This document shows positions 1 to 8,852 of a stretch of 8,852 nt of DNA, one piece after another. The stretch is from Psychrosphaera sp. (lineage in GTDB: Bacteria; Pseudomonadota; Gammaproteobacteria; Enterobacterales; Alteromonadaceae). Position 1 is the stretch's first letter, and the number at the start of each line of letters is the position of its first letter. The notes under the pieces are model-generated. The model searched no databases. It was not told the DNA's origin and worked only from the letters and a program-made list of their open reading frames with translations. The stretch spans positions 1 to 8,852 of the forward strand of contig JAOHFM010000054.1 in NCBI GenBank assembly GCA_028098005.1. Reading direction: 5' to 3'. Both the position numbers and the translations under genes were made by a program.

Positions 1-68
1 GGACGAGACTCGAACTCGCGACCCCCGGCGTGACAGGCCGGTATTCTAACCAACTGAACTACCGCTCC
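1..68 (-). tRNA. tRNA-Asp (anticodon GUC), 3' end cut by window edge
   Basis: Read on the minus strand from base 68, this is a canonical tRNA: acceptor 5' strand GGAGCGG, D-arm with GTTCAGTTGGTTAGAA, anticodon arm GGCCTGTCACGCC with anticodon GTC at 34-32, a variable region of Gs, and a T-arm with loop TTCGAGT. It is nearly identical to E. coli tRNA-Asp; one T-stem pair is swapped as a compensatory change (A-T for G-C). Only the first two bases of the 3' acceptor strand are inside the window; about nine bases (rest of the acceptor, discriminator, CCA) are missing. In E. coli the aspV tRNA-Asp also lies just downstream of dnaQ on the same strand, so the location looks ancestral. Identity is very secure. 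Confidence 0.97.
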
Positions 69-104
69 GTTGCTTATCACTTGTTGTCAGCTTTGCTAAA
101 CAAC

Positions 105-140
105 GGGGCGAATATTAAAGTTTGAATTCACTACCGTCAA
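105..140 (-). promoter_or_regulatory. Sigma-70 promoter of the tRNA-Asp gene
   Basis: On the minus strand there is a -35 box TTGACG (140-135), exactly 17 bp of spacer, and a -10 box TAATAT (117-112). A GC-rich discriminator (about 110-103) follows, and the start of transcription should be near 105, giving a leader of about 36 nt before the tRNA 5' end at 68. A near-consensus core with a GC-rich discriminator is the usual form of stable-RNA promoters under stringent (ppGpp/DksA) and growth-rate control; that regulation is inferred from family knowledge. Confidence 0.85.
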
Positions 141-176
141 CACCTTTTTTTAAAAAGTTGTTCTTTTGCTTAGTTT

Positions 177-1664
177 CTAATCATCTGGCAGAGAAAGGTC
201 TAAAATATCATCAGAACCTTCTTGTTTTGGTGCTTTATCACTCGCTTTTTCTTTATCAGAAGAGTCGTTTTTTTCACCGTCTTTAGATTTCTTTTTGAAT
301 TTTATTAATTTGAGCGGGTTAGGTATGCTTCTTTTTAGAACAATTAGCCAAATTACTAAAAAGCCCACCGTTAAAATGACTAAATTTAAGATAATAATTA
401 GCGCTATTGGGACCGGCTCTTCTTTTATTTCTACTTCATTCAATTGTTGCTCTTCATTTTGAGCTGTCTCGATTGGGTTTTCCGTTAATTCTTCGCCATT
501 CTCTGTTTTAATATCGCTAAGCGTTTCGGGTATTTCTGTAGTGAACGCAAACACTGGAGGCGAAAGAATAAACTCTCTTCCCTCTTTATCTTTACCAAAC
601 ACCTCTGTTTCTATTTGAAACTGACCATAATCGGCTTGGAACAAACTTATTTTTCGTTCTTGGTCTTTATTCAGGTGAAAGGTTTCTGTATCGCCGTTTG
701 GAAACGTGCTTACCCCTTGGAACACCAGTTCGTTTATATCTACATACCTATCGTCAACTTCAATAGTGACATAGTGGTAATTATCTTCTCCTGTCGCTTT
801 TTCAACTGTAAAGGTGATTGGGGCAGGTAAAACATTAATATCAGCTTGTACTACTTCCCGAGTAAACAACTCTGCTTGCGCTCTATACTTAGGCGTCCAC
901 TTACCTACTTCACTGTTGAAGTCATATTGAACAGTAAACTCACCATCTCTAGGCCTTTCATCAAGAACTCGCCCATCATCAAAAAATTCTCCCAATGTAT
1001 ATATACCGGCTCCAAAGTTTTTCAACTCAGCGTTATTAGTGGAGTATAAATACGCTCTAAGCCTTACCACATCACGGATGGCAGGATCTCTTATCAGTTC
1101 TCGGGCATTCGTTATTTTTGCTTTCGCTTTAATACGCTCAGTTTGAAATACGGATGATGGTAAGGGGTCAACTATAAGCTGGACGTCAGATAAAACTAAA
1201 ATTTTACTTGTGTCTTCTATGCGCCCTAGAGCTTGCCAAGGACCAGGCATGGGGTTTTTAAGCCTTATTAGGTCATAACTGACATCGGCATGCCAATCCA
1301 CCTCCCCTGTCTCTGCAGCCGTAACGTAAATCTTAGAACCGTCTGGTTTAACTAATACTACGGGCGATGAACCTCGTTTTCTAAACAGCAGTAACAACAG
1401 TTCATCCACCTCATAGTCAATTCTAAAGCGATTATTTAGGAGCTTTATTTGATTGCTACCTTTGAAGTTCTTTAGCATTTCTAATGTGGGTTGCGCTTGA
1501 GCTTTCGTAGGGTCGATAATTTTAGGTAAACTGGTGCCTGGCAGAGCATTTGCGCTGGCGATAGGAAGCAAAAAAGTGAACGCAAAAACAGTCAATATAC
1601 TTTTAAATATTGAAGTAGTTAATTTTATATTGAGTGCTTTTCTTAATGCTGAGTTGTTCGCCAC
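177..1664 (-). CDS. TIGR03503-family exported membrane-anchored protein, function unknown
   Basis: 495 residues. A Sec signal peptide covers about residues 1-40 (hydrophobic core, cleavage after ANA). A large extracytoplasmic part rich in beta-strand pattern follows. It holds an N-P-M-P-G-P-W motif (137-143) and an acidic DDG...D...DG stretch (229-241), both of the kind seen in beta-sandwich domains that accompany VWA-type surface proteins. A single membrane helix lies at about 420-443, then a charged cytoplasmic tail of about 50 residues (Lys-rich, then Asp-rich). This architecture and the place next to dnaQ fit family TIGR03503, a conserved group of unknown function whose species range was noted to resemble that of the GlyGly-CTERM sorting signal. 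The family name is from memory, not a search. The start is GTG, overlapping the end of dnaQ by 22 bp, so the two are almost certainly co-transcribed and translationally coupled. No terminator is visible before the tRNA promoter. Confidence 0.85.
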   Translation of the reverse strand: MANNSALRKALNIKLTTSIFKSILTVFAFTFLLPIASANALPGTSLPKIIDPTKAQAQPTLEMLKNFKGSNQIKLLNNRFRIDYEVDELLLLLFRKRGSSPVVLVKPDGSKIYVTAAETGEVDWHADVSYDLIRLKNPMPGPWQALGRIEDTSKILVLSDVQLIVDPLPSSVFQTERIKAKAKITNARELIRDPAIRDVVRLRAYLYSTNNAELKNFGAGIYTLGEFFDDGRVLDERPRDGEFTVQYDFNSEVGKWTPKYRAQAELFTREVVQADINVLPAPITFTVEKATGEDNYHYVTIEVDDRYVDINELVFQGVSTFPNGDTETFHLNKDQERKISLFQADYGQFQIETEVFGKDKEGREFILSPPVFAFTTEIPETLSDIKTENGEELTENPIETAQNEEQQLNEVEIKEEPVPIALIIILNLVILTVGFLVIWLIVLKRSIPNPLKLIKFKKKSKDGEKNDSSDKEKASDKAPKQEGSDDILDLSLPDD

Positions 1665-2353
1665 AATGGTGCTCCACCCTCTTTTTCTATTATGTCTAAA
1701 CGAGATTCATGCTCAGCAAGTTCGATTTCGCTCGCCTGAACTACCTTCAAATGTCTCATTTCCGTTTTATTTGATCCATCTTGGTTAAGTTGTTGCGCCT
1801 TTAATTGATGAGCTAAATCCATGTCCACTTGACCGCCCGTCATACGCAGATAAACATCAGCCAGTATTTCTGAATCGAGCAAGGCGCCGTGTAACATTCG
1901 GTGGGAGTTATCAATCTCGTATCGCCTACAAAGTGCATCCAAGCTGTTTTTTTGCCCTGGATGCTTATCTCTCGCCATGACTAATGTATCGACCACAGCA
2001 CAAAAGTCTGCAGTTTGCGTCCAGTCTTGCCATAAAATGCCAAATTCATTGTCCATGTGACCAATATCAAAAGGCGCATTATGAATTACCAGTTCGCCAC
2101 CTCTAATATAGTCAAAAAATTCATCGGCTATATCCCTAAACAAAGGCTTACCGCGCAAAAACTCATTAGTGATCCCGTGAACCCCAATCGCTTCGTCTTC
2201 AATCATTCGTTGCGGATCAATATAAACGTGGAAGTTATTGCCGGTAAGACGTCTGTTTACCATCTCGATACAACCAATTTCAATAATGCGGTGCCCAGCT
2301 CTTGGGTCAATACCTGTGGTTTCTGTATCTAAAATAATTTGTCGTTTGGCCAT
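1643..2353 (-). CDS. dnaQ: DNA polymerase III epsilon subunit (3'-5' proofreading exonuclease)
   Basis: 236 residues, close to the E. coli length (243). It removes misincorporated 3' nucleotides during replication as part of the polymerase III core. DEDDh exonuclease motifs are complete: DTETTG with D9 and E11 (ExoI), HNAPFD with D96 (ExoII), and LHGALLD with H155 and D160 (ExoIII). A linker after the domain carries QVDMDL (175-180), at the position of the E. coli beta-clamp binding motif QTSMAF. The C-terminus (about 200-233, ending in ...GGAPLW) matches the alpha-subunit binding segment of E. coli DnaQ. The ATG at 2353 gives the expected N-terminus, but no good Shine-Dalgarno sequence precedes it. 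It is divergent from rnhA, as in E. coli, and its 3' end overlaps the TIGR03503 gene. Confidence 0.98.
   Translation of the reverse strand: MAKRQIILDTETTGIDPRAGHRIIEIGCIEMVNRRLTGNNFHVYIDPQRMIEDEAIGVHGITNEFLRGKPLFRDIADEFFDYIRGGELVIHNAPFDIGHMDNEFGILWQDWTQTADFCAVVDTLVMARDKHPGQKNSLDALCRRYEIDNSHRMLHGALLDSEILADVYLRMTGGQVDMDLAHQLKAQQLNQDGSNKTEMRHLKVVQASEIELAEHESRLDIIEKEGGAPLWRTTQH
1672..1675 (-). promoter_or_regulatory. Ribosome binding site setting the GTG start of the TIGR03503 gene
   Basis: GGAG lies on the minus strand 7 nt upstream of the GTG at 1664-1662, inside the last codons of dnaQ. No in-frame ATG occurs before residue 63, and a later start would remove the signal peptide, so this site fixes the GTG as the likely start. 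Confidence 0.7.
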
Positions 2354-2364
2354 AATTTACTGTA

Positions 2365-2393
2365 TTCAATGATTTTGATAGTTAGAGTATACT
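2365..2393 (+). promoter_or_regulatory. Putative rnhA promoter within a palindromic -10 region
   Basis: TATACT (2388-2393) matches the -10 consensus in 5 of 6 bases. TTCAAT (2365-2370) sits 17 bp upstream as a weak -35 (3 of 6). Transcription would start near 2400, giving a leader of about 36 nt to the rnhA ATG. The -10 is part of a perfect 12-bp palindrome also usable on the opposite strand. Confidence 0.5.
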
Positions 2394-2415
2394 CTGTAAT
2401 TGAAAATAAAATCAC
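2386..2415 (-). promoter_or_regulatory. Putative dnaQ promoter, sharing its -10 with the rnhA promoter
   Basis: Read on the minus strand, TATACT (2391-2386) is a good -10 box. The best -35 at an acceptable distance is GTGATT (2415-2410, 18 bp spacer), only 3 of 6 matches. Predicted start near 2379, leaving a leader of about 26 nt before the dnaQ ATG. The -10 lies in the palindrome AGAGTATACTCT (2384-2395) and overlaps the rnhA -10 by four bases. The -35 is weak, so confidence is moderate. Confidence 0.45.
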
Positions 2416-2427
2416 CCATTAGGATCA

Positions 2428-2439
2428 ATGAGTTTATGA
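2428..2439 (+). other. Possible three-codon upstream ORF overlapping the rnhA start
   Basis: AGGA (2421-2424) stands 3 nt before an ATG (2428) opening the reading frame M-S-L-stop. Its TGA (2437-2439) overlaps the rnhA ATG (2436-2438) in an ATGA arrangement. The same AGGA is 11 nt from the rnhA ATG, long for direct use. This may be chance; translation of such a minimal ORF cannot be shown from sequence. Confidence 0.25.
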
Positions 2440-2897
2440 AATCCGTACAACTTTTCACAGACGGTTCCTGTTTAGGAAATCCCGGACCAGGCGGATATGG
2501 CGCACTACTTATTTATAACGGCCATAAAAAAGAATTACATCAGGGTTATAAAAAAACCACCAATAATAGAATGGAGCTTTTAGCCGTTATAAAAGGTCTT
2601 GAAGCCATTAGCGAATCCTGCAAGATAGACGTAACCACTGATTCAAACTACGTAAAAGATGGCATCACCAAATGGATTAAAAACTGGAAGAAAAACGGCT
2701 GGAAAACGGCTGCAAAGCAACCGGTAAAAAATGTAGATTTATGGAAAGCACTAGACAGCGCTGTTGCTAAACACACCATTGAATGGCATTGGGTTAAAGG
2801 TCATAGCGGCCACACTGAAAATGAAATTGTTGATGACCTAGCAAGAGCTGCAGCGGAGTCAAAAAACTTGTTGGAAGACAGCGGATTTCCAGGCTAA
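2436..2897 (+). CDS. rnhA: Ribonuclease HI
   Basis: 153 residues, against 155 in E. coli RNase HI, with very high similarity over the whole length. It cuts the RNA strand of RNA-DNA hybrids, for example R-loops and stray primers. The four catalytic acidic residues are present: D9 in FTDGSC, E47 in NNRMEL, D69 in TTDSNYV, and D133 in the DDLAR segment, with the general-base histidine H123 in VKGHSGH. The basic handle region used for hybrid binding is recognisable ([13 protein letters not shown], about 80-92). The ATG at 2436 was chosen because it gives the family N-terminus; an in-frame TTG at 2400 would add 12 residues and coincides with the predicted transcription start. It is divergent from dnaQ and followed by a hairpin terminator. 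Confidence 0.97.
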
Positions 2898-2900
2898 TTT

Positions 2901-2916
2901 TATTTGATATCAAATA
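2901..2916. repeat. Perfect 16-bp palindrome just after rnhA
   Basis: TATTTGATATCAAATA is fully self-complementary with no spacer and begins three bases after the rnhA stop codon. As RNA it could form only a weak AT-rich hairpin with a 4-nt loop. It precedes the main terminator and may be a protein-binding site, an mRNA 3'-end element or chance. Confidence 0.5.
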
Positions 2917-2920
2917 GAAA

Positions 2921-2948
2921 TAAAAAGCAGACTATCCTCTGCTTTTTA
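2921..2948. terminator. Bidirectional Rho-independent terminator between rnhA and the EamA gene
   Basis: TAAAAAGCAGA (2921-2931) and TCTGCTTTTTA (2938-2948) form a perfect 11-bp stem around the 6-nt loop CTATCC. An A-tract precedes and a T-tract follows the GC part on both strands, so transcripts from either side end in a hairpin plus U-run. The position between two convergent genes fits a shared terminator. Confidence 0.88.
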
Positions 2949-2972
2949 TAACAAACTAATTTTACTTTCTAT

Positions 2973-3824
2973 TTATCTCGTGTTACTAAGCGCATTACTC
3001 ACCACTGCACCAACAACAATTAACAAGGTTGCAACAATTATTGACACCGTTAGTTCACTAAAGCCAAATAAATACAAAGAAAGTGACGCGATTACGGGAG
3101 TACCAAAACTAATTGATGCTAACCAAGATTGGTTCCCCTCTTTCATACCAATGTCCCATAAATAAAAAGCACCGCCAGTTGGACCAATACCTATAAGTAC
3201 AAGCATCATGATTTCTATGTTTGTTAAATTCCATACTCCATTTTCAAACAGTAAATGACAACACAACGCAATCACTGCTACCGCCATTGCCACCCAAGAT
3301 ATGTCTTCTACATCACTTTTTGTTTTAGATAAAAACCAGGAGTAATTGGTCCATATCAACGCACACCCTAGTGCACATAGATAGCCAACGACTGCTAACG
3401 TACTTTCTCCTTGGTTTGAATCTAAGCCATCTGCGATCATTACTACTGTGCCACAGAAACCGATAATTCCACCTAAAACGGCAAATCGTTTATTGCCTTT
3501 GGTTGCTAATAATACGCCTAGCAATAAAGGCCAAAGATAGATAATTAAGGTTGCTTCAATGGGTGGTGCAAAACGAAGCGCTAAAAAATAGAATATATGA
3601 AAGCCGAATAAACCCGTTACCCCCACAAGCCATTGAGTTCTGTTCATTGCGGGCTTTTTGATTAAAGGCTCACGCTTAATGGCTCGTTTTACATAAACTA
3701 ACGAGCTCGCTATTGTGAAACAAATAAACAGAAGTTGAAACGGTGGGATACGATTAGTAAACACACTCAGTGCCGCTAACATACCCCACATAAAAATAGC
3801 AAAACAGCCTAAAAACGTTGCCAT
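2973..3824 (-). CDS. EamA-domain DMT-family transporter, YddG-like
   Basis: 283 residues from the chosen ATG. The sequence is hydrophobic throughout, with about ten predicted membrane helices arranged as two five-helix EamA repeats, the standard form of drug/metabolite transporters in the inner membrane. The segment around residues 78-100 (FYFLALRFAPPIEA, then YLWPL) strongly resembles exporters of the YddG group, which export aromatic amino acids in E. coli; substrate assignment here is only suggestive. The frame is open upstream to a TTG at 3839, but AGGGG sits 5 nt before the ATG at 3824, favouring this later start. It is convergent with rnhA across the shared terminator. It lies 96 bp downstream of the ABC permease gene on the same strand, so it may have its own promoter or receive read-through; no convincing promoter was found. 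A metabolite exporter is a firm call, the substrate is not. Confidence 0.88.
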   Translation of the reverse strand: MATFLGCFAIFMWGMLAALSVFTNRIPPFQLLFICFTIASSLVYVKRAIKREPLIKKPAMNRTQWLVGVTGLFGFHIFYFLALRFAPPIEATLIIYLWPLLLGVLLATKGNKRFAVLGGIIGFCGTVVMIADGLDSNQGESTLAVVGYLCALGCALIWTNYSWFLSKTKSDVEDISWVAMAVAVIALCCHLLFENGVWNLTNIEIMMLVLIGIGPTGGAFYLWDIGMKEGNQSWLASISFGTPVIASLSLYLFGFSELTVSIIVATLLIVVGAVVSNALSNTR

Positions 3825-3829
3825 CATTA

Positions 3830-3834
3830 CCCCT
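3830..3834 (-). promoter_or_regulatory. Ribosome binding site choosing the EamA start
   Basis: AGGGG on the minus strand lies 5 nt before the ATG at 3824-3822 and only 2 nt before the ATG at 3827-3825. The more upstream TTG (3839) would put this site inside the gene. It therefore supports 3824 as start. Confidence 0.6.
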
Positions 3835-3851
3835 AACAAAAAATTAAGAGC

Positions 3852-3884
3852 GCATAGTAACGGATGTAGGTAAAATTACTATGC
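3852..3884. repeat. Inverted repeat in the gap between the ABC exporter operon and the EamA gene
   Basis: GCATAGTAA (3852-3860) and TTACTATGC (3876-3884) are exact 9-bp inverted copies around a 15-bp spacer. Allowing a 2-base bulge extends pairing to GAG/CTC on the outside (3848-3850 and 3885-3886). No U-tract follows directly on either strand, so it is not a standard terminator. Dimeric regulator operator, mRNA-stabilising hairpin after the operon and leader element of the EamA gene are all possible. The rest of this roughly 96-bp gap shows nothing else convincing. Confidence 0.55.
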
Positions 3885-3920
3885 TCATGAGACATAAAAC
3901 TAAGTAAAAGTTATATATGC

Positions 3921-5159
3921 CTAGTCAGAATGCAGTGCTTCAATAGGGTTAAGTCTCGATGCTTTAATGGCCGGATACGCGCCAAAAGAAACCCCTACAA
4001 CCATGCATATCGCAAGAGACAAGAATATCGCCCACATTGACCAAGTCACAGCCCATTCAGAATAAAAGCCAATCACTTCCGAGAGTAGTAGCCCAAAACC
4101 AACGCCTAGTACCCCGCCTAAAAATGAAATAACAAAGCTCTCTGTAATAAATTGTAGCTTAATGTCTTGTTTTGTTGCGCCAACGGCCCTTAGCAAACCA
4201 ATTTCTTTAGTCCGCTCCAAAACATTAGCCAACATAATATTCATAATACCTATGCCACCTACCAACAATGAGATTCCCGCCACACAGGCCATAACAATAT
4301 TAAATATCTGCTGGGTTTGTTCTTGTTGTGCCAAAAGCTCAGATGGAATAATTAAGGTGTAATCCTCTATATCACTATGGCGAACGGAAAGTAGCTGTGA
4401 AATTGCTTTTGAAGCTAATATTGGGCTGTAACCTTTTTCAATTGACACTTTTACTACGTCTAATTCACTGGCTAACCTATCCGATGAAAACTTTTTTAAT
4501 GCCGTTGTTAGCGGAACAAAAACCCTATTTCTGTCCCCACCCAATTTCACGCCTTGAAACTCATCTTTATTTAGCTCCGGCTTTGTTAATACGCCCACCA
4601 CCTTTAGCCAAACATGGTTAACTTTTACTAATTGGCCTACCGGATCAGTGTTAGGAAATAAAGATTGAGCAGCATCAAAGCCTAAAACCGCCACTTGGCT
4701 TACATTATCAATGTCCGTTTTTGTGATCAGTCGTCCCTGAGTAGATGCTAGATTAGCAAGCGTAAAGTAACTTTCATTGACACCGATTGTCTCAGACTCA
4801 GCCTTTCCATATTCACTATACAAGGCATGCGTTTTTATCTCTTTTTCAGCACTAAAGCCGGTAATAAAAGGCAGCGTAGACAACATGGCATTAATATCTG
4901 ACATAGATAAGCCGAGTGTTTCTTCACGCAGCTCTTTAAGCTCATCTTTGCTGAATTGCTTTGTTTCAATGATTAAGTTGTTGACTCCCATAGAGTCAAT
5001 TAATTTTAACGCTTCTTTTTCTGCACCTTCGCCAATATTCAACATGGCTATTACAGCACCAACCCCAAAAATCATGCCTAGTAGGGTTAACAAGGTTCTT
5101 AGTTTTTGAGACGCAAGTTCACTCCATGCATCTATCACTAATGGTTTTAACTTATCCAT
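3921..5159 (-). CDS. MacB-like ABC transporter permease (FtsX domain)
   Basis: 412 residues. A mechanotransmission-type ABC permease in the inner membrane that works with a separate ATPase and periplasmic adaptors. The N-terminus has a short amphipathic stretch (SQKLRTLLTLLGMIFGVGAV) leading into membrane helix 1 (about 22-42). A periplasmic MacB_PCD domain of about 240 residues follows, then three C-terminal helices (about 286-311, 340-363, 374-396). The coupling segment ERTKEIGLLRAVGAT (around 315-328) that contacts the ATPase is well conserved, and the end SRLNPIEAL is the family's usual C-terminus. Unlike E. coli MacB, the ATPase is not fused. The ATG overlaps the end of the preceding adaptor gene by 8 bp, with GGGAGAG in that gene as ribosome binding site. 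It is the last gene of the exporter operon. Family is clear; cargo is unknown. Confidence 0.94.
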   Translation of the reverse strand: MDKLKPLVIDAWSELASQKLRTLLTLLGMIFGVGAVIAMLNIGEGAEKEALKLIDSMGVNNLIIETKQFSKDELKELREETLGLSMSDINAMLSTLPFITGFSAEKEIKTHALYSEYGKAESETIGVNESYFTLANLASTQGRLITKTDIDNVSQVAVLGFDAAQSLFPNTDPVGQLVKVNHVWLKVVGVLTKPELNKDEFQGVKLGGDRNRVFVPLTTALKKFSSDRLASELDVVKVSIEKGYSPILASKAISQLLSVRHSDIEDYTLIIPSELLAQQEQTQQIFNIVMACVAGISLLVGGIGIMNIMLANVLERTKEIGLLRAVGATKQDIKLQFITESFVISFLGGVLGVGFGLLLSEVIGFYSEWAVTWSMWAIFLSLAICMVVGVSFGAYPAIKASRLNPIEALHSD

Positions 5160-6354
5160 GTTTGTTCTCTCCCGGTGTACTTAACGCAATTTGGTCACCT
5201 TCATTAAGACCTGAAGTAACTTCTACTAAAAACAAGTTTTTAGCTCCCGTTGATATGGGCTGTTTTTTAAAACGATTTCCTTGCTTAACATAAACAAAGT
5301 TACCGCCATCTTCATTGTGTATTGCTTGTAACGGGGCAACCAACTTCTGGTCAAAGGCTTCAACATGAATGGTTGCCGATAGTTTTCGCCCTGGCCTAAA
5401 GGTATCGCTACCGGCTTGAGAAATACTCACCGTTACCTCAAAAAACTTTACCGGATTTCCTCTTTGAATTGTTCTGGCAAAGCCTGCAACTTCAACAACC
5501 TTGCCTGTAAAAACTTTATTAGGATAAGCGTCTAAGGTCAAACTGACGCTCTGATCTTTACCTAAACCAATAGCCTCTTTTTCTAAGACAAATAGTTTGG
5601 CTTGCATTTGCGATAAATTTGGAATTTTTGCAACAGCGCTTCCTGGAAACACAGTTTGACCTACCGTTGCTGATTCGCCACGCCAGTTTTTTTCGTAAAC
5701 TAATAAACCATCAAAAGGCGCTCTCACCTCCAATAAGGAAAGTGCTTGTTGATGCTGGTCTAGTTTAGATTGATGGCCGCTTTTTTGAATATCAAGCACA
5801 TCAACGGCGCTTTGACTTTGTTCACGAATGCTGCCTTTTTTCCAATCTAAGAACTCATCTTTGGCGCTTAAAAACTCGGTGTTTTCCATAGACTCAATGA
5901 TTTCTAATTGTGAATATATGCGTAAGTCATCCACAGAGTAGCTTTTCGCAAATTCAAACTCTTCACCTACAAACTCTTTTTCTGCTTTTACCTCAGTTTC
6001 ATCTTTATTTTTTTCTGTTACTTTTTTTACGATGTCTTTTTCTATTAACATCATATCTAGTTGCTCGTTACGTGAGTCTATGGATAGTTTTTCACCATCA
6101 AACTTTACTATTAGCTCACCTTTTTTTACTTCTTTATATTCTTCCGCTAGCCATGCAATAGTCATTGGTTGACGACCAGGAGAGTTTATTGTTTCCGATG
6201 AAGCGGCTTCAAGGTGTCCAGTTCCGGGTACATCTACCCTTAAATTAGTCGCTGCAACTGTATATGTAGGAATTGTTTCTTGTTCTTCAGAACATCCCAC
6301 CAGCAACAAAGACGAACATATCGCTAGCAACAAAGTCGCGTTTAAATACTTCAT
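5152..6354 (-). CDS. Third periplasmic adaptor (HlyD/MacA-type), lipoprotein with membrane-proximal domain
   Basis: 400 residues. Lipoprotein signal peptide with lipobox LVGC, lipidated Cys at 21, Ser at +2. Domains in order: first half of the lipoyl/biotinyl-like fold (about 55-87, ending KKGELIVKFD), alpha-helical hairpin (about 88-206), second lipoyl half (207-245, RAPFDGLLVY onward), beta-barrel (about 248-332, with the shared motif LDAYP at 274-278 and RPGRKL at 320-325), and a C-terminal beta-rich membrane-proximal domain (about 335-395, LVAPLQAIHN through GLNEGDQIAL). It is the only one of the three adaptors with that last domain and therefore the one most like complete MacA. Its start overlaps the preceding stop as ATGA, with GGAGG 6 nt upstream. 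Expected role: adaptor linking the permease to an outer-membrane channel. The canonical TolC-tip pattern R-x3-L-x6-S was not seen in the hairpin. Confidence 0.92.
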   Translation of the reverse strand: MKYLNATLLLAICSSLLLVGCSEEQETIPTYTVAATNLRVDVPGTGHLEAASSETINSPGRQPMTIAWLAEEYKEVKKGELIVKFDGEKLSIDSRNEQLDMMLIEKDIVKKVTEKNKDETEVKAEKEFVGEEFEFAKSYSVDDLRIYSQLEIIESMENTEFLSAKDEFLDWKKGSIREQSQSAVDVLDIQKSGHQSKLDQHQQALSLLEVRAPFDGLLVYEKNWRGESATVGQTVFPGSAVAKIPNLSQMQAKLFVLEKEAIGLGKDQSVSLTLDAYPNKVFTGKVVEVAGFARTIQRGNPVKFFEVTVSISQAGSDTFRPGRKLSATIHVEAFDQKLVAPLQAIHNEDGGNFVYVKQGNRFKKQPISTGAKNLFLVEVTSGLNEGDQIALSTPGENKHG

Positions 6355-7343
6355 GATTGTCCTCCTGCCATTTCCACTTTAACTTTCATTCCTGGGCGCA
6401 TTATTTCTGGATCAATATTTTCTATATCAATAAAAACATCAAATACGACTTTAGGATTTCTGTAAGACTTGCTTTTATAAGATTGCCCGAGCGTGGAAAT
6501 TTTGCCGACAAAAGGCAATTCAGGATAGGCGTCTAAGGTGATTTTTACTGAGTCACCTACATTGACTTTAGTTGTGTCTGGCTCATCAAATTCTGCCTGC
6601 ACAGCTATTTTATCTAACGAGGGTATAGTAAGTACTCGGCGGCCCTGCCAAATTGTCTCGCCTACCGCGGGCTTTTCGCCATCTTGTTCTGTTACATACA
6701 TAACAATGCCTGATTTACTGGCTTTAATGTTAAGTAAATTAATCTCAGATTTTAAGCGTTCAACATCAACGGTTAATCGATTGATGGTTGCTTCTGATAC
6801 TTCGGCGTTAATTGCTGTACTAGCATGATAATTTTCTAAACGTTGCTCTGCTTGTGCAAACCTAGCCTGCGCAATTTCATATTGTTTTGCCTGCTTTTCC
6901 TTTTCGATACCAGAACGAGACGCGTCAACAATTTCCGCCTTTCGTTGCTCTTTGTCTCTGTTCATTTTTGCTTCTGCTTTTGCAAGCTTTAAATCTTGTA
7001 ATATCTGTGTCTGGTTTAGTTCGCTCTGCTCTTTTTGTTTCACCGCTGCATCAAGTTCACTTTGCTTGCTCATTAAATCATTTCTTAGTTGCATGGGATC
7101 AAAGCGTATAACGGTATCGCCTTTTTTAACGAGTTTGTTTTCTTTTGCTAAGTACTGAATTTTATATTGCCACATGCTAGAAACGCTTGGAGGAGATATA
7201 GTTGCAGATTCTTTAGACACTAATATACCTGTTGCAGATAAACTCGACGCTTCAACTAATTTTGGTGCCACCTTGTTTTCTACACCGCAAGCGATTAACT
7301 GAACGGCTATCAACATGGCAATAGTCATTTTAAGTTTACTCAT
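6351..7343 (-). CDS. Second periplasmic adaptor (HlyD/MacA-type), short lipoprotein
   Basis: 330 residues. Lipobox LIAC with lipidated Cys at 19, Gly at +2. First lipoyl half about 47-82 (VKKGDTVIRFD), a strongly charged alpha-helical hairpin about 84-205 with many Lys, Glu, Gln and Ala in heptad-like spacing, second lipoyl half about 206-240 (KASKSGIVMYV, then GEKPAVGETI), and a beta-barrel about 244-326 with LDAYP (270-274) and RPGMKV (316-321). The protein stops right after the barrel: there is no membrane-proximal domain. It is clearly paralogous to its two neighbours, sharing the W...I..L..E...VKKGD...FD pattern and the LDAYP...F.GK barrel motif. It overlaps the adaptor before it by 8 bp and the one after by 4 bp; GAGGGAG lies ahead of its ATG. 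Individual role unknown; a subunit of a mixed adaptor ring is the most natural inference. Confidence 0.9.
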   Translation of the reverse strand: MSKLKMTIAMLIAVQLIACGVENKVAPKLVEASSLSATGILVSKESATISPPSVSSMWQYKIQYLAKENKLVKKGDTVIRFDPMQLRNDLMSKQSELDAAVKQKEQSELNQTQILQDLKLAKAEAKMNRDKEQRKAEIVDASRSGIEKEKQAKQYEIAQARFAQAEQRLENYHASTAINAEVSEATINRLTVDVERLKSEINLLNIKASKSGIVMYVTEQDGEKPAVGETIWQGRRVLTIPSLDKIAVQAEFDEPDTTKVNVGDSVKITLDAYPELPFVGKISTLGQSYKSKSYRNPKVVFDVFIDIENIDPEIMRPGMKVKVEMAGGQS

Positions 7344-8328
7344 CAGCTTCTCCCTCTACTACAACTTGTACGCTCATGCCTGGCAATAATTCAATGTTAG
7401 GTTGCTGCTTAAACTTAAGGTATATACGGTGGTATGAGCTATTGCTCCAATTTGCTATTTGTTCAGATTGACTCGCCACAGATTGAACCACGCCTTCAAA
7501 ATTTTGCTTTGGGAAGGCATCTAATTTAAGTGATGCGGCGCTGCCCGCCTTTACTTTATTAACATCAATTTCATGAACCCAAGCTTGAACTTGATAGCCG
7601 CCTTTCCCTTGCACTAACATTGCTTTCATCGATTGCTGAAGCATTGTGCCTGCCGTTATTTTTTCGCCATGCCAAGGGTGCATCATATGAGTAACTTGGC
7701 CTGTAATTTCAGCCCTCACCGACGCTCTTTTTAACGTTTGACGTTGGTAAGCCAAGCGCTCTTCTATTTTGATAATTGAAATTTTTTGTTTCGCTATTTC
7801 AACTTCCTGTTCTTTCTTCTTAACGATGAGTGCTTGTTCTGCTTTAATTTTATTTAATAACGCTCGCTCAAGCGCGATTTGATATCGTCCTTTGTCATAT
7901 TTACTAACGTCGGTAGAGGTGATATCCGCTTCAATTCTTGCTTTTTCTACTTCCAGTTCTGCAATAGCCAATGCGCTTTCTGCGTCCGTTACAGCTTGCT
8001 CTAAATCTAATTCCTTTTTCTTCAGCAATAGCTTCTCAGAAGATAACTGCTCTTCACTTTGCTTAATTTGAGATTTAATGGAGCCGGAATCAAAAACCGC
8101 TATCAGATCACCTTTATTGGCAATCTTACCCTCTTCAAACATCCATTGAATTTGAATTTGCCATCTATCGGTTCTAGGTGCACTTACGATCTGCTTTTCC
8201 AATGAGGCAATTTCACCGGTAATCAAAACCGATTCTGCATTTGCTACCGGCATATATAAAATGGCACTAGACATGAACGCTAGATGTATGAGTCGATTGG
8301 CTTTCAAAGCAGCTAACTTATTTAACAT
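7336..8328 (-). CDS. First periplasmic adaptor (HlyD/MacA-type), cleaved signal peptide, no lipid anchor
   Basis: 330 residues. The N-terminus is a Sec signal peptide with predicted cleavage after ANA (residue 31) and no lipobox cysteine, so the mature protein should be free in the periplasm. First lipoyl half about 46-82 ([10 protein letters not shown]), long charged helical hairpin about 84-202 (Lys/Glu-rich, coiled-coil-like), second lipoyl half about 203-235 ([10 protein letters not shown], then [10 protein letters not shown]), beta-barrel about 238-325 with LDAFP (269-273) and LPGMSV (315-320). It ends after the barrel with no membrane-proximal domain. The ATG overlaps the ATPase stop region by 11 bp; GGAGAG is the ribosome binding site. 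It is the first adaptor after the ATPase. Lack of both a lipid anchor and a membrane-proximal domain makes it likely to depend on the other adaptors for placement on the permease. Confidence 0.9.
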
Positions 8329-8852
8329 TATTGCTCTCCATGCTAATAATTTGCCCGTCTTTCATTCTCACTACTCTTTCTGCAAATTCAGCAATATCAT
8401 CTTCATGAGTCACCATCACGATTGTTTGACCTTGTTGATGCAGATCCGTTAATAACGCCATGATTTCTTCTGATGTTTTACTGTCGAGGTTACCCGTTGG
8501 TTCGTCAGCGAGCACAACCGCAGGGTTATTTATCAATGCACGAGCAATTGCGACGCGTTGCCGCTGGCCGCCAGACATTTCAAACGGTTTATGATGCATA
8601 CGATGTTCAAGTCCAACTTTTTTTAGTAAGCGGATCGCACGCTCTGTTGCTTCTTCATCTGATATATCGGAGTACCTGAGTGGCAACTTTACATTGCCAA
8701 TTGCGTCTAATTTAGGAAGTAAGTGGAAGGTTTGGAAGATAAACCCTATGTGTTCATTTCGGACTTTAGATAACGCTTCGTCAGACATAGAGGCGACATT
8801 TGCACCATTTAGATAATACTCTCCATGTGTAGGGGTATCCAAACAGCCTAGG
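8318..8852 (-). CDS. ABC transporter ATPase, MacB/LolD type, 5' end outside window
   Basis: 177 codons are visible and the frame is open through the window edge; the first visible residues [13 protein letters not shown] match the region just after Walker A in MacB/LolD ATPases, so about 50 N-terminal residues including Walker A are missing. An in-frame TTG at 8842 is internal, not a start. In visible numbering: Q-loop Q40 in [10 protein letters not shown], signature MSGGQRQR (92-99, Met in place of the usual Leu), Walker B VVLADE (112-117), D-loop GNLDS, and H-loop His149 in MVTHE. It provides ATP hydrolysis for the separately encoded permease. It is the most upstream gene of the operon seen here; the operon promoter and any preceding gene lie outside the window. 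Confidence 0.95.

Follow-up and report, generated by a model that had tools for sequence, protein, structure and literature searches.

The MacAB-TolC pump is built from a MacB dimer, a MacA hexamer and a TolC trimer, as described in the available part of PMC5985334. Its ATPase and permease are joined in one MacB polypeptide, served by one adaptor gene. The same part of that source covers the systems YknWXYZ and Spr0693-0695, in which a MacB-like permease is accompanied by a separate ATPase gene. These two are Gram-positive and again have one adaptor. The multi-adaptor case named by reviews, in the accessible portion of PMC8277102, is TriABC. This pump of the resistance-nodulation-division (RND) type has a three-fold motor and two adaptors, and is taken to be a 3:(3+3):3 assembly with a consensus mixed ring (extract of PMC13328181). 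Here we analyse an 8,852-nucleotide stretch of DNA from Psychrosphaera sp. (contig JAOHFM010000054.1, positions 1 to 8,852; hereafter the window), in which three adaptor genes, A1, A2 and A3, lie between the genes of an ATPase and a MacB-like permease. Together, the five genes probably specify a single ATP-driven exporter of the MacB type (type VII ATP-binding cassette, ABC) that spans the envelope and has a mixed adaptor ring, in which A1, A2 and A3 would most likely be present in two copies each.

The locus is like TriABC-OpmH of Pseudomonas aeruginosa, with its adaptors TriA and TriB, in that several adaptors with unequal roles would serve one pump. The transporter, however, is a MacB-like ABC permease and not an RND protein, and three adaptors are combined with a two-fold motor instead of two with a three-fold one. 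It differs from MacAB-TolC in having three diverged adaptors, counted here as genes, and an ATPase encoded on its own. The latter feature is shared with YknWXYZ and Spr0693-0695. Our search of the open-licence literature, which leaves out most subscription papers, found no description of an ABC exporter with three adaptors, and so agrees with the original prediction, made from the DNA letters of the window, that no described ABC exporter is known to require three.

A five-gene operon of the MacB type

The genes follow one another on the minus strand in the order ATPase-A1-A2-A3-permease (Table 1). Neighbours overlap by 11, 8, 4 and 8 bases, and such overlapping genes resemble a translationally coupled operon. 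Gene coordinates and Pfam matches bear out the predicted set of three tandem adaptor genes, one MacB-like permease and one ATPase. Each adaptor scores above the Pfam cut-offs for HlyD_D23 and HlyD_3. The permease combines a MacB_PCD periplasmic domain with an FtsX-type core, as type VII (MacB-type) exporters do, and its family profile matches MacB structures (best 7.6e-64). A partner ATPase with an ABC_tran match is encoded by the adjoining gene on the same strand; its best NCBIfam model is MacB, at 2e-61 and under the cut-off of that model. The MacB equivalog model falls below its cut-off for both the ATPase and the permease, which are two separate genes. A same-strand ATPase adjoins in 98 of the 102 loci scanned; three others are cut by contig ends and one (L122) is without it.

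The three adaptors are kept together

A first collection, started from the A2 family within one genome collection, yielded 50 loci. In all 50 the order is ATPase, A1, A2, A3, with the permease next in every locus but the two that are cut (L011 and L035). The closest named relative is Psychrosphaera haliotis, with 82% identity for A1 and 82% for A2; in its long-read draft (L001, 8990-11419), A3 is broken into two frames and so is the permease, probably through assembly errors.

Because a search that starts from an adaptor would bias the test of retention, it was repeated starting from the permease. In an order-level sample of 295 genomes, the permease scored at least 560 bits in 22, and the next best match reached 262. 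A phylum sample of 398 genomes contributed 4 further permease loci, and samples of the families around three of these four (107, 107 and 109 genomes) added 31 loci in 30 genomes. The flanks were annotated, six of the 22 order-level loci being read from their twins in the A2-found set; six short views (L051-L056) of contigs already represented by L032, L029, L015, L021, L017 and L002 were counted once. Related loci lacking one or two adaptors, the result named as counting against the original prediction, did not appear: A1, A2 and A3 are present in 56 of the 57 permease-first loci (56 genomes), and the exception (L131) is truncated at the end of its contig. When this sample of 295 genomes was searched with the profiles of A1 and of A2, each profile hit 22 genomes, once each, and these are the 22 that carry the permease. 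The 14 next-nearest permease loci that we fetched have one adaptor each. The full set also occurs on two Pseudoalteromonas second replicons. The distribution is patchy, since a class-wide sample (n=369, best four candidates per genome) returned only the centre genome at E 1e-80.

For phylogenetic analysis, close relatives were thinned, and L075_OUT was dropped by the tree program. In the tree of 27 loci, A1, A2 and A3 form one clade each (Shimodaira-Hasegawa-like approximate likelihood ratio test, SH-aLRT, 99, 95 and 99), with nine single adaptors as a fourth. The permeases are likewise split from single-adaptor permeases with a support of 100. This single-clade pattern places the triplication before the sampled spread, and the three adaptors have stayed distinct ever since. 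The triplication is thus old, and no copy has been lost in the checked loci.

Two loci show additional features. L122 is a second copy of the system in its genome and has a fused A1-A2 (a 736-residue frame), A3 and the permease, with no same-strand ATPase alongside. L094 contains a further weak adaptor-like frame (52 bits) near the operon, on the opposite strand (11144-11674, +). Of up to 70 loci compared, no more than 11 share any one neighbouring gene family within 4 kb of the operon, so that the locus offers no clue to the cargo.

Recurrent fusion of A1 and A2

A1 and A2 form a single open frame of 638 to 674 residues in four Glaciecola loci and are also fused in 20 of the 35 loci L112-L146. 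Both genes can be seen in 101 loci, and 24 of these have the fusion, always in the order A1-A2. Mapped onto a 90-row tree of the permease, the fusion changes state 8 times, and well-supported branches force 6 of these changes. In the six fusions aligned, the second half lacks a separate signal sequence, and the fusions are therefore not simple read-through errors. When the best 7991 candidates of a protein database were scored, at least nine protein clusters of fusion size were found, with no triple fusion among the 16 matches listed. None of the loci scanned has a fusion involving A3, and plasmid records searched with a distant fusion gave no match.

Adaptor fusions have served as an argument for adaptor pairs before: DSY0927, a natural dimeric fusion from Desulfitobacterium hafniense, and an engineered fused AcrA argue for pairs inside the hexamer (available part of PMC4446572). 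In contrast to those cases, the fusion here joins two distinct paralogues of ancient origin, with a third adaptor making up the full set. Of the evidence gathered, this recurrent fusion speaks most strongly for A1 and A2 standing side by side at 1:1, and because it recurs among the relatives, the ring is probably a mixed one that matches the two-fold motor.

Architecture of the adaptors

All three proteins show the hairpin, lipoyl and beta-barrel fold of MacA/HlyD-type periplasmic adaptors. They are as diverged as predicted, with pairwise identities in the window of 22.6% (A1-A2), 21.3% (A1-A3) and 28.0% (A2-A3). A1 consists of lipoyl halves, hairpin and beta-barrel, with neither a lipobox nor a membrane-proximal domain. 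A2 has a lipoprotein-type signal (LIAC), a hairpin and a beta-barrel, and in the window it also lacks the membrane-proximal domain. Both stop after the beta-barrel, whereas A3 continues into a MacA-type membrane-proximal domain, which it keeps in all 19 loci with tails inspected. A2 bears a membrane-proximal-like C-terminal tail in L081, L084, L086, L087, L088, L091, L096 and L115, and its tail is altered in L085 and L095; the variety of A2 tails across sister lineages suggests repeated loss of this region. The A2-family profile matches EmrA structures best (1.2e-11). EmrA of EmrAB-TolC, like A1 and A2, is without a membrane-proximal domain, but it is the one adaptor type of a major facilitator superfamily pump. 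In place of the transmembrane helix of MacA, A2 and A3 carry lipoprotein signals.

From the aspartate of the FD motif to the conserved glycine in the second lipoyl half, the spacing is exactly 129 residues for each of A1, A2 and A3, compared with 98 in Escherichia coli MacA. Hairpin length is nearly invariant across loci (L001, with its split A3, and L011 and L035, at contig ends, were left out of the A3 count), and co-variation of lengths is hence unusable. An earlier estimate of 117-122 residues for the hairpins was right, the modelled lengths being 119 for A3 and 121 and 120 for the A1 and A2 halves of a natural fusion. The sequence pattern KKGD/NKGD..FD proposed to be common to all three adaptors fails for A3, which reads KKGE..FD. 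The three hairpin tips differ from each other. The RLS motif of MacA (RxxxLxxxxxxS) is found at the tip in 0 of 71 A1, 1 of 71 A2 and 0 of 68 A3 sequences, a weak contrast given that only 3 of 9 single-adaptor controls carry it. At the position of the MacA glutamine-gate-ring loop in the second lipoyl half, A3 reads NWRGESATVG, and a G-E-(K) pattern is common to A1, A2 and A3.

Proposed assembly of the adaptor ring

We propose that two permeases and two ATPases would form the motor, and that the periplasmic conduit above it would be a mixed ring in place of six identical adaptors, arranged A1-A2-A3-A1-A2-A3 with most likely two of each. By the logic that gives 3:(3+3):3 for TriABC, three adaptors on a two-fold motor would give 2:(2+2+2), and the ring would share the two-fold symmetry of the permease dimer. 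A3 may dock on the permease through its membrane-proximal domain, while A1 and A2 would fill the remaining places in the lipoyl/beta-barrel ring and the hairpin tunnel and would contact the channel in the outer membrane, presumably of the TolC type, with tips of their own. The recurrent A1-A2 fusions and the identical hairpin spacing, both read from sequence, lend independent support to one shared ring. For its strictest form, an obligate two-fold hetero-hexamer (A1A2A3)x2 with one A1-A2-A3 set per permease subunit, we consider the chances evenly balanced.

Several points weigh against a shared ring of this kind. The A1-A2 fusion is evidence of a 1:1 partnership only and does not bear directly on A3. 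Separate homo-hexamers that reach the same channel would likewise need hairpins of equal length, and the spacing is constant in other adaptor subfamilies too, at 98 in MacA and four single adaptors. The structural model of the fusion is middling (predicted template modelling score, pTM, 0.55; 14 of 33 rows cover the A2 half), and its overlay on TolC is loose. A two-fold order is mismatched to a three-fold channel, and each adaptor would meet both groove types. Finally, the canonical TolC-binding RLS motif is missing from the three families save for the single A2 noted above, as it is from most single-adaptor controls.

An unlikely but credible arrangement has two layers or two complexes: a MacA-like A3 homo-hexamer on the permease, with A1 and A2 in a separate 3+3 ring or accessory assembly. 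It would account for the membrane-proximal domain being confined to A3 in the window and constant in A3 in the tails inspected, and for fusions that pair A1 with A2 and never with A3 in the loci scanned. Yet A1 and A2, which in the window lack the permease-docking domain, are kept with the permease in every uncut locus checked; all three adaptors have the same hairpin spacing, and A2 also bears a membrane-proximal tail in several sister lineages. Less probable still is a mixed ring of another ratio or order than 2+2+2, such as 1:1:4 or a variable mixture. The fusion fixes only A1:A2 at 1:1 and leaves the share of A3 free, but 2+2+2 would be the simplest match to a two-fold motor, and the strict retention of three types would suit three distinct positions better than a loose mixture. 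Interchangeable adaptors, each forming its own homo-hexamer and any of them serving the permease, for instance with different channels or substrates, are a very improbable alternative: tandem paralogues often begin so and the differing tips make different channel partners conceivable, but no copy is lost in 56 uncut permease-first loci despite wide divergence, a fused A1-A2 could not easily form separate homo-hexamers, and A1 has neither a membrane-proximal domain nor a lipid anchor.

Features of the window

Table 1 Genes and adaptor features of the exporter operon, in window coordinates.
Feature	Position	Strand	Remarks
ATPase, MacB/LolD/FtsE-type nucleotide-binding protein	8318..8851	-	5' end outside window; ABC_tran 3.3e-19
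Adaptor A1, 330 residues	7336..8328	-	HlyD_3 2.9e-9, HlyD_D23 1.1e-7
A1 hairpin	7702..8088	-	129 residues between D80 and G210
Adaptor A2, 330 residues	6351..7343	-	HlyD_D23 2.1e-10
A2 hairpin	6711..7097	-	129 residues between D82 and G212
Adaptor A3, 400 residues	5152..6354	-	lipoprotein-type signal LVGC, hairpin, beta-barrel, membrane-proximal domain
A3 hairpin	5710..6096	-	129 residues between D86 and G216; helices at residues 88-143 and 149-206
A3 membrane-proximal domain	5176..5337	-	approximately residues 340-393; strands in model, alignment to MacA across region
MacB-like permease, 412 residues, without ATPase domain	3921..5159	-	MacB_PCD 1.7e-32, FtsX 1.2e-22

Directly downstream of the operon lies a gene for a YddG-like aromatic amino acid exporter (EamA; 2973-3839, -), which matches the NCBIfam model ArAmAcExpYddG at 7.5e-73, under that model's cut-off, and is followed by a terminator-like hairpin at 2949-2920. 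A TIGR03503 family protein (3.2e-109, above cut-off; no Pfam match) is encoded at 177-1664 (-). Positions 1-70 (-) resemble the cut end of a tRNA gene, presumably tRNA-Asp by its look, although ARAGORN reports none. Among the seven window proteins run against Pfam, none matches a channel family.

Implications for tripartite exporters

In MacAB-TolC a two-fold motor, a six-fold adaptor ring and a three-fold channel are combined, and unequal positions are hard to study in a ring of six identical proteins. With a different gene for each position, and two of them fused in some lineages, position-specific mutations, labels and deletions become possible and the symmetry question becomes testable. 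The locus represents a conserved, apparently undescribed type of exporter in marine Alteromonadales-type bacteria and in several GC-rich lineages within that phylum. If the proposed composition is correct, (A1A2A3)x2 would correspond in an ABC pump to the (TriA TriB)x3 ring of the three-fold RND pumps, and would suggest a rule by which the number of adaptor types equals six divided by the symmetry of the motor.
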